Positions 32,768 through 34,295 of a DNA stretch of 64,000 bases are shown here, one piece after another. Position 1 is the first letter of the stretch. Each line of letters starts with the position of its first letter. The notes under the pieces were generated by a model. That model was not told where the DNA came from, ran no database searches, and saw only the letters and a program-made list of their open reading frames with translations. The translations under genes were made by a program, and so were the position numbers. Source of the DNA: a bacterium (lineage in GTDB: Bacteria > Armatimonadota > Fimbriimonadia > Fimbriimonadales > Fimbriimonadaceae); NCBI GenBank assembly GCA_027483535.1, contig JAIXUN010000001.1:1-64000 (forward strand), in the 5' to 3' direction.

Positions 32768-33790
32768 ATGAGCGGAACAATCCACGAGGCGGAAGGATGG
32801 CGTCGAATGACGCTACGGGATCGCCCGCGTCCGCTTTGGCTCTCGGACAAGGGTCCGGATTTAGACGTCGTTCTTAGCTCACGAGTGCGACTAGCCCGAA
32901 ATCTTCGAGGTTTCAAATTTTCTGAAAAGTGCTCTTCGATGGAAATCAACCAGATCGCGGAAAAATTGATTTCGGCGGGTCAAGCCACGGGCGATTACGA
33001 GAGCTTTCGAAGTTTGACCACCGCCGAGAGGGACTATTTGGTGGGAGCGCGACTGCTCTCTCCGGACTTCCCTTGGACCCTTCCCGGTCGAGCCCTGCTC
33101 ATTGATGATCGCCAGTCCATTGGGCTGATGATTCACGAAGAGGATCACCTGCGGGCGCAGGCGATCACGCCCGGATGGTCTATTCGCGAGGCCGACAAAG
33201 CCGTTTACGGCGTGACGGATGCCATCTCCAAACATTGCCCGTTCGCTTGGTCGCCAAAGTTTGGGTTCCTCACCGCATCGGTCGCCAACTGCGGAGAGGG
33301 ATCGCGCCACTCGGCGATGCTCCACCTGATCGGGCTTGCGACGACGGGCCAGATGAACGATGTGATCCGTGCTCTGCTCGCCACGAGGCTGACGATTCGC
33401 GGCCTGTTTGGCGAATCTAGTCGAGCCCTGGGTGCCTTTGCCCAAGTGAGCCTGGTCAACGGCACCTTGGAGGCTTTTGAGGGGGCGGTGCAGTATTTGG
33501 TCGACCAGGAGCGCGCCGCTCGCCGAGCCGTGACCGATCAAGCAATCGCGGTTCGAGTCGATCAGGCCCTCACTTTCTTGGGGTCTTCCCGCGTCATTTC
33601 GGTTTCAGATGCTCTGCGAGCAATGGGCTGGATTCGATGGGGCACTGAAAGAGTGGGCGCTTCCCTTTCCATCAAGGGTCGAGATGTGGATGCGGCTCTC
33701 GCGGGATTGGACATGCGCGTGAGTCTGGACGGAGATGATGCAGCGGTACGCCGGGCCGACTATCTACGGAAGCGATTCCTTGCCCGCTGA
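32768..33790 (+). CDS. McsB-like guanidino kinase with altered catalytic loop
   Basis: 340 residues in the ATP:guanido phosphotransferase fold of protein arginine kinase McsB: SSRVRLARNLRGFKF at 37-51 (ATP phosphate contacts), HEEDH at 123-127 (substrate Arg pocket Glu) and RAVTDQAIAVRV. In the catalytic loop the usual CPTNxGTGxR is replaced by SVANCGEGSR (171-180): the Cys is Ser and a Cys appears four residues later. Activity is therefore doubtful or altered. The usual McsA, ClpC and CtsR partners are absent here. Confidence 0.8.
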   Translation: MSGTIHEAEGWRRMTLRDRPRPLWLSDKGPDLDVVLSSRVRLARNLRGFKFSEKCSSMEINQIAEKLISAGQATGDYESFRSLTTAERDYLVGARLLSPDFPWTLPGRALLIDDRQSIGLMIHEEDHLRAQAITPGWSIREADKAVYGVTDAISKHCPFAWSPKFGFLTASVANCGEGSRHSAMLHLIGLATTGQMNDVIRALLATRLTIRGLFGESSRALGAFAQVSLVNGTLEAFEGAVQYLVDQERAARRAVTDQAIAVRVDQALTFLGSSRVISVSDALRAMGWIRWGTERVGASLSIKGRDVDAALAGLDMRVSLDGDDAAVRRADYLRKRFLAR

Positions 33791-33842: not shown

Positions 33843-34295
33843 ATGACCACCGACGACTACATTGCCGCCATTGAAGACCCGGTGCGCCGGGAGATGGTGA
33901 CCCAACTTCGCGAGGTCATTCGGGCCAACATCGACCCACGGTTTGAAGAGGGCATCCAGTACAGGTGCATCGGTTGGTACGTCCCGCATGCCATTTATCC
34001 CGCCGGGTACCACTGCGATCCCAAAGAACCCGTGCCGTTTATGGGCATTGCAAACTCAAAGGGCCACGTTTCACTGCACGCATTCTGCCTGTATGTGGAT
34101 GATGCCGTCACGAGTTGGTTTGAGACCGAGCACAAGGCGCGAACCGGCAAACTGGACATGGGCAAGAGCTGCGTGCGCTACAAGAAGCCCGAGCAAATGT
34201 CGCTTGAACTCATCGGCGAGTTAATGAAAAAGATCTCGCTCGACGAGTTTCTCGCTCACTACACCGCCTCCATTCCTCCATCGAAGAAGAAATAG
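33843..34295 (+). CDS. DUF1801 (YdhG-like) protein
   Basis: 150 residues. Small alpha/beta domain with GIQYRCIGWYVP, KEPVPFMGIANSKGHVSLHAF and GKSCVRYKKPEQMSLELI, the usual pattern of DUF1801. Cytoplasmic, function unknown. Ends 2 bases before the stop of the convergent add gene. Confidence 0.8.
   Translation: MTTDDYIAAIEDPVRREMVTQLREVIRANIDPRFEEGIQYRCIGWYVPHAIYPAGYHCDPKEPVPFMGIANSKGHVSLHAFCLYVDDAVTSWFETEHKARTGKLDMGKSCVRYKKPEQMSLELIGELMKKISLDEFLAHYTASIPPSKKK

Follow-up and report, generated by a model that had tools for sequence, protein, structure and literature searches.

A McsB-type protein with Ser at the catalytic Cys position, shared by most homologues in Armatimonadota

The first gene of Table 1 encodes a McsB-type protein that carries Ser at the position of the catalytic Cys. 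It lies in the window, by which we mean the whole 64-kb stretch of DNA analysed here. We favour, with a probability of roughly 0.58, the explanation that this gene encodes the kinase subunit of a thiol-free McsA–McsB–ClpC protein-labelling system. The computational basis of this explanation is the fold, the retained ATP and guanidinium residues, the loss of the Cys in most of the phylum, and the association with McsA-like and clpC genes that is seen in many other families. As judged from the alignments, a Cys-less variant of McsB is found in most homologues of the phylum (Armatimonadota), and the window McsB is probably a working variant, since most of these relatives have Ser there and conserve the remainder of the active site. 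No account of a Cys-less McsB was found in the open-access literature, as covered by titles and abstract openings.

The active-site Cys is regarded as indispensable in McsB and as important for phosphagen kinases. The role of the thiol can be studied in a natural experiment, namely a lineage that lacks this Cys but keeps the surrounding residues, and the same lineage bears on whether ClpC can be served by a McsB that does not phosphorylate. Such proteins would be missed by annotation based on the CPTN motif, the NCBIfam cut-off or operon context.

The McsB-type protein and its active site

The ORF matched the ATP:guanido phosphotransferase family PF00217 (E 2.3e-31; 109.2 bits, above the curated cut-off of 22.4) and was the sole such match in the 3.77-Mb window genome. 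Comparison with McsB 6fh1 (E 2.4e-40), in which residue 23 of the window protein aligns with residue 16 of McsB, placed SCPTNVGTGLR of 6fh1 opposite the window loop without gaps, with Ser171 at the catalytic Cys position and Cys175 opposite a Val. This confirmed the sequence-only reading, which had described a McsB-like protein with the loop SVANCGEGSR for CPTNxGTGxR and Ser for Cys. The predicted model (pLDDT 85.1) gave McsB 6tv6_D as its best PDB match in VIA-align (Z 35.6, rmsd 3.0, 322 residues), and placing model residues 12–340 on 6tv6_D predicted that the phosphotransferase and C-terminal dimerization domains are present and the small-substrate domain is absent. The protein scored below the NCBIfam McsB equivalog cut-offs (172.5 bits vs. 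385, 167.2 vs. 500, and three lower). By sequence, the window protein is not a canonical McsB, because it falls short of the NCBIfam cut-off, has no catalytic Cys and lacks the receptor pair; it is related to McsB, shares the McsB fold in its model and most likely works in the same way. A DUF1801 protein gene adjoins it downstream on the same strand, and no conserved linkage between the two was seen.

Table 1. Features of the McsB-type gene, its neighbour and the McsA-like genes
Feature	Position	Strand	Remarks
Cys-less McsB-type gene	32768..33790	+	340 aa, full-length ORF
SSRVRLARN motif, residues 37–45	32876..32902	+	Arg39, Arg41, Arg44: R in 149/149 phylum homologues and 80/80 outside relatives
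HEEDH, residues 123–127	33134..33148	+	family consensus NEEDH; Glu125 (149/149) taken as putative substrate-binding carboxylate
Catalytic loop SVANCGEGSR, residues 171–180	33278..33307	+	Ser171 for catalytic Cys; Asn174 and Arg180 retained
Cys175, variable position	33290..33292	+	Cys in 29/149 relatives
RGLFGE, residues 211–216	33398..33415	+	Arg211 and Glu216 both 149/149; Glu216 taken as putative second carboxylate
C-terminal AAVRRA, residues 325–330	33740..33757	+	RDxxRA in known McsB; Ala325/Ala326 at the receptor pair
DUF1801 protein gene	33843..34295	+	PF08818, E 1.8e-11
McsA-like gene of the window genome	L292 5983..6231	+	82 aa; ATG 8 bases past the ilvE-like stop codon
McsA-like–McsB fusion genes, family f19			loci L083, L084, L242, L245, L248, L252, L255, L256, L265

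The phylum was searched through 291 genomes, of which 169 had a PF00217 match (170 matches in total); McsB was present as one copy in 168 of these 169 genomes and as two copies in the remaining one. Among the 149 phylum homologues counted, which are the matches listed besides the window's own, the catalytic position was Ser in 134, Cys in 8, His in 5 and Asp in 2, and never Ala or Gly. The comparison sample from outside the phylum, a biased one, consisted of the best 80 of at least 581 relatives from public genomes (36 Bacillota, 22 Planctomycetota, 9 Omnitrophota, 6 from other phyla and 7 unassigned), and 79 of these 80 had Cys. The sole exception was L147, one of the unassigned relatives, whose McsA-like piece is identical to that of L028 in the phylum. 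A survey of the loop across phyla had been proposed by the sequence-only reading, and its outcome overturned the view of the loop change as an oddity of one gene; moreover, a sequencing error is very unlikely, since Ser is common to 134 of the 149 relatives. The His loci were L003, L007, L011, L028 and L228, and the Asp loci L016 and L078; a McsA-like gene was upstream in five of these seven loci and clpC downstream in six. The PF00217 search was silent in all 14 control genomes, B. subtilis included. The B. subtilis control genome was also silent for Clp_N and CtsR although B. subtilis carries a ctsR-mcsA-mcsB-clpC operon; this region may be lacking in the copy searched.

Around the catalytic position, R39, R41, R44, E125, D126, H127, R129, N174, R180, R211, G215 and E216 were invariant in all 149 homologues, and the SSRVRLARN site was indeed kept as first read, its three arginines being present in both samples without exception. 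The ATP-clamp and catalytic roles that we assume for R39, R41, R44, R129, R180, R211, E125 and E216 were assigned from motifs. Simple decay is unlikely, since the catalytic glutamates and ATP-clamp arginines are retained throughout the 149 proteins. The HEEDH pocket, said to be kept as such, proved to be a departure from the family motif: the Asn of NEEDH was found in 144 of 149 phylum relatives and 80 of 80 outside, and His123 is shared with L272 only. Cys175, regarded as a distinctive replacement, sits at a variable position that is otherwise mostly A, V, L, I, T or S, and its low frequency (29/149) led us to reject it as a shifted catalytic Cys. Thr173, beside the catalytic position, was present in all eight Cys proteins and in 11 of the 141 non-Cys proteins, the pattern expected if Thr173 served the thiol.

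In B. subtilis McsB, the receptor for phospho-arginine is the residue pair Arg337/Asp338, according to the accessible part of PMC8370763; the window protein has Ala325/Ala326 at these positions. The RD pair was found in 5 of 8 phylum Cys proteins and 4 of 141 phylum non-Cys proteins, compared with 54 of the 79 outside Cys proteins. Judged by these residues, the allosteric phospho-arginine receptor is lost in the window protein, and self-activation through autophosphorylation is therefore probably gone.

McsA-like, ClpC and phosphatase genes

Outside the window's order, 49 of the 59 non-Cys McsB loci carried a McsA-like zinc protein, which was encoded directly upstream in 39, by an overlapping frame in one, and in fusion with McsB in nine. 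No adjacent McsA-like gene was seen in the other 10 of the 59, some of which have short flanks; eight of these ten belong to family f10, and for six of those eight a match was located elsewhere in the genome. In the fusion family f19, a McsA-like zinc domain and a Ser-type McsB form one frame of 472–495 aa, followed by clpC in nine of nine loci. A longer McsA-like protein was present at 5 of the 6 Cys-type loci of the phylum outside the order, the frames measuring 185–411 aa beside Cys-type McsB vs. 68–220 aa beside non-Cys McsB. In addition, a McsA-like match was found at 76 of the 80 outside loci (the best 80 of at least 581).

A zinc-finger profile was built from the phylum's McsA-like proteins beside McsB, and its top PDB matches were McsA 8wtb_B (E 5e-17) and 8gqd_E (E 2.3e-15). 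Searching the 291 genomes with this profile, with at most 22 candidates scored per genome, gave 155 genomes with both McsB and a McsA-like match, 113 with neither, 14 with McsB only and 9 with the McsA-like match only (23 discordant; Fisher p 7e-53, shared ancestry ignored). Within the window's order, the corresponding numbers among 113 genomes were 90, 7, 9 and 7 (Fisher p 6e-4, shared ancestry again ignored), although no McsB locus examined there is McsA-adjacent: such a gene was adjacent in 0 of 84 loci, 33 of them with short flanks. Two earlier suppositions were thus rejected. McsA is not absent on account of the few UVR domains, as the short McsA-like proteins beside non-Cys McsB had escaped that count, and it is not absent from the window's order for want of adjacency, as 97 of its 113 genomes have a profile match. 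Neither McsB nor a McsA-like gene was found in G132 and G133, two reduced 1.5-Mb genomes of the window's family with a completeness of 97%, and one stop codon lies inside the zinc-finger match or frame in G022, G031, G034, G084 and G173.

The window genome had a single McsA-like match (C1:1753117, E 6.3e-10), and the gene ahead of it encodes an ilvE-like class IV aminotransferase. The McsA-like frame overlapped or directly followed the ilvE-like gene in all 20 loci sampled from the 97 order genomes, and the first zinc finger was recognised by eye in 13 of these 20 frames (a pattern script gave 11, with two misread). The 82-aa protein of the window genome scored 19.9 bits against NCBIfam McsA, the cut-off of which is 210, and we therefore use the name "McsA-like".

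Of the 50 non-Cys loci outside the order with at least 400 bases of flank, 42 had clpC as the next gene downstream and eight did not; the remaining 9 of the 59 were too short to score. Downstream of Cys-type McsB outside the order, clpC was found in one of four loci of the phylum, with two more too short. Within the order, clpC was the next gene in four of four loci of family f2. In families f1 and f3 it was adjacent in none of the 46 loci whose flank sufficed, a further 34 being too short. At the 80 outside loci, the best 80 of at least 581, clpC was downstream in 56, absent in 20 and beyond a short flank in 4. The window genome has a ClpC with the motifs RFTERA and TEHLLLGL; its Clp_N matches are on contig C1 only, and the window lies on C2. 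The 64-kb window contained no McsA-like match. None of 80 genomes, the window's own included, gave a CtsR match; the control for this search was positive in L. lactis and silent in B. subtilis, and is thus not fully reliable. The initial statement that no McsA, CtsR or ClpC is nearby therefore holds for the window, but other parts of the genome contain ClpC and a McsA-like gene. No shared gene neighbourhood was seen in the window's order, the biggest common neighbour cluster comprising 11 of 50 loci; there, the ancestral operon is broken up and its genes are scattered.

Two further candidates for tracing the pathway were set aside. The N-terminal glutamates of ClpC were uninformative, as all 30 genomes inspected had TEH or SEH, including six that lack McsB. 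The only low-molecular-weight (LMW) phosphatase of the window genome carries CLGNICRS. The GNTCRS form, which we take to be the signature of YwlE, was seen in none of 51 LMW-phosphatase loci, which are a part of those listed, and a second LMW phosphatase acting on phospho-arginine was accordingly unsupported in that part. The signatures in these 51 loci were mainly CxGNICRS and VHNAGRS, with four GNSCRS or ANSCRS (L140–L143) and a few others.

History of the cysteine loss

In a FastTree tree of 176 rows, which included the loop columns and 27 of the 80 outside rows, the phylum together with L147 formed one clade (0.973), and five Cys proteins grouped together (0.961) beside all other phylum members. 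The other three, L064, L076 and L234, have Cys and the full CPTN and were placed among the Ser types in this tree. An IQ-TREE run used 95 rows with the loop columns removed and an outgroup off by one row. On that tree the Cys label needs four changes, two of which are forced by well-supported branches, and L234 is on a long branch; the end branch of the window protein was 0.63 vs. a median of 0.33. A single clade of all eight Cys rows was rejected (p-AU 0.0148), but moving L064 alone was not (p-AU 0.25), and a regain of CPTN is for this reason likely and not firmly shown. As read from these trees, the Cys was lost early in the phylum. The Cys-type loci L002, L004, L012, L018 and L024 belong to genomes G007, G004, G003, G002 and G001, respectively; these five genomes had 6–7 UVR matches vs. 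1–4 in the other 75 searched, which places the loss of the UVR part and the loss of the Cys in the same part of the tree.

Proposed mechanism, alternatives and known systems

In the favoured explanation, ATP would be bound by the invariant arginines and a protein arginine would be held by Glu125 and Glu216, counterparts by motif assignment of the two substrate glutamates of arginine kinase. Where canonical enzymes have a thiolate, Ser171 would give the guanidinium no more than a neutral hydrogen bond. The McsA-like zinc finger would bind beside the loop and activate the kinase, and labelled proteins would be handed to ClpC. A hydroxyl in place of the thiolate plausibly keeps the geometry at some cost in rate, since E125 and E216 are both invariant. 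Cys mutants of arginine kinase are reportedly partially active, as the title of a 2004 report by Gattis is said to state. According to the accessible part of PMC11075012, Glu225, Glu314 and Cys271 of arginine kinase together bind the substrate guanidinium, and charge is transferred from each of them. Part of a review (PMC12467219) describes the zinc finger of McsA as setting the orientation of the catalytic Cys in McsB of S. aureus, and part of another attributes the McsB contact to the second zinc domain of McsA (PMC12387690). On these partial accounts, the finger that contacts McsB is the one retained in the McsA-like proteins of the phylum, though the Cys is gone.

Several observations count against this explanation. 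CtsR and a YwlE-type signature were unseen in the genomes and loci covered, the NCBIfam scores are below the cut-offs, clpC is not adjacent in the f1 and f3 loci with sufficient flank, and ten of the 59 non-Cys loci outside the order showed no adjacent McsA-like gene. Furthermore, the window protein has a long end branch and a nearly private HEEDH, and the McsA-like protein encoded in its genome has only 82 aa and scores poorly against NCBIfam McsA. The co-occurrence statistics leave shared ancestry out of account and used a profile drawn from genes next to McsB, and the regain of CPTN is not firm.

The main rival is a kinase-dead adaptor, because the same Cys-to-Ser change inactivates McsB of B. 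subtilis: the C167S protein is described as kinase-inactive in the accessible part of PMC7235348, which counts against a thiol-free kinase, and the same part reports that C167S keeps a kinase-independent adaptor effect on the degradation of MgsR. The window protein would then be a natural C167S, and McsB and the McsA-like protein would bind clients and pass them to ClpC without phosphorylation. The general loss of the receptor pair in non-Cys proteins, the missing YwlE-type signature in the part of the phosphatase loci covered, and the McsA-like and clpC linkage retained in other families would all suit such an adaptor. However, it is hard to see why an adaptor would require that the ATP-clamp arginines and the two catalytic carboxylates stay invariant, or that position 171 be limited to S, C, H and D. 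That McsA–McsB–ClpC works thiol-free in most of the phylum, with McsA–McsB as a phosphorylation-free adaptor for ClpC, is a tentative reading, appreciably less probable than the kinase. In the alternative thiol-free form, a kinase, the role of the thiolate would fall to Ser, His or Asp, and an active enzyme is favoured over the adaptor because the ATP and carboxylate residues are invariant and position 171 is limited to hydrogen-bonding residues. The same invariant residues, together with Ala325/Ala326 at the receptor pair, disfavour the pseudo-kinase binding phospho-arginine that the sequence-only reading had offered.

An active kinase with another acceptor, for instance a different protein residue or a free guanidino compound, appears unlikely. 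Loss of the Cys alters the guanidinium-binding side of the pocket, and the sequence cannot tell the substrate; yet the protein lacks the small-substrate domain that phosphagen kinases carry at the N terminus, its match to arginine kinase chains beginning near residue 110, and proteins are the substrates suggested by the linkage with McsA-like and ClpC genes in other families. A decaying pseudogene or sequencing artefact, to which the long end branch and the nearly private H123 might be ascribed, is highly improbable: the 340-codon frame is intact, the glutamates and arginines are kept in a gene that is single-copy in nearly all genomes that have it, and the recurrence of the same substitution across the phylum contradicts it.

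Compared with known systems, the window protein resembles McsB of Bacillota (6fh1, 6tv6; NF053707) in its full-length fold, its ATP and guanidinium residues and the lack of a small-substrate domain, and its genome likewise has ClpC and a McsA-like gene. In contrast to these enzymes, it has Ser for the catalytic Cys, Ala for the Thr of CPTN and AA for the receptor RD, in a genome where no CtsR was found and the genes are scattered. Natural arginine and creatine kinases have the Cys. These kinases, including arginine kinase C271A (1sd0), share the catalytic domain with the window protein (Z 20.6–23.3 over 208–224 residues among the matches shown) but possess their own N-terminal substrate domain. 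The McsA activator (8wtb_B, 8gqd_E) is comparable in that both chains are the first found by the phylum's zinc-finger profile, whereas the phylum frame beside non-Cys McsB is short and, in f19, fused to McsB. The closest counterpart in the catalytic substitution itself is the laboratory mutant C167S of B. subtilis, as described in the accessible part of PMC7235348; the Ser of the phylum differs in being natural, in occurring in most homologues and in being accompanied by further changes in the loop.
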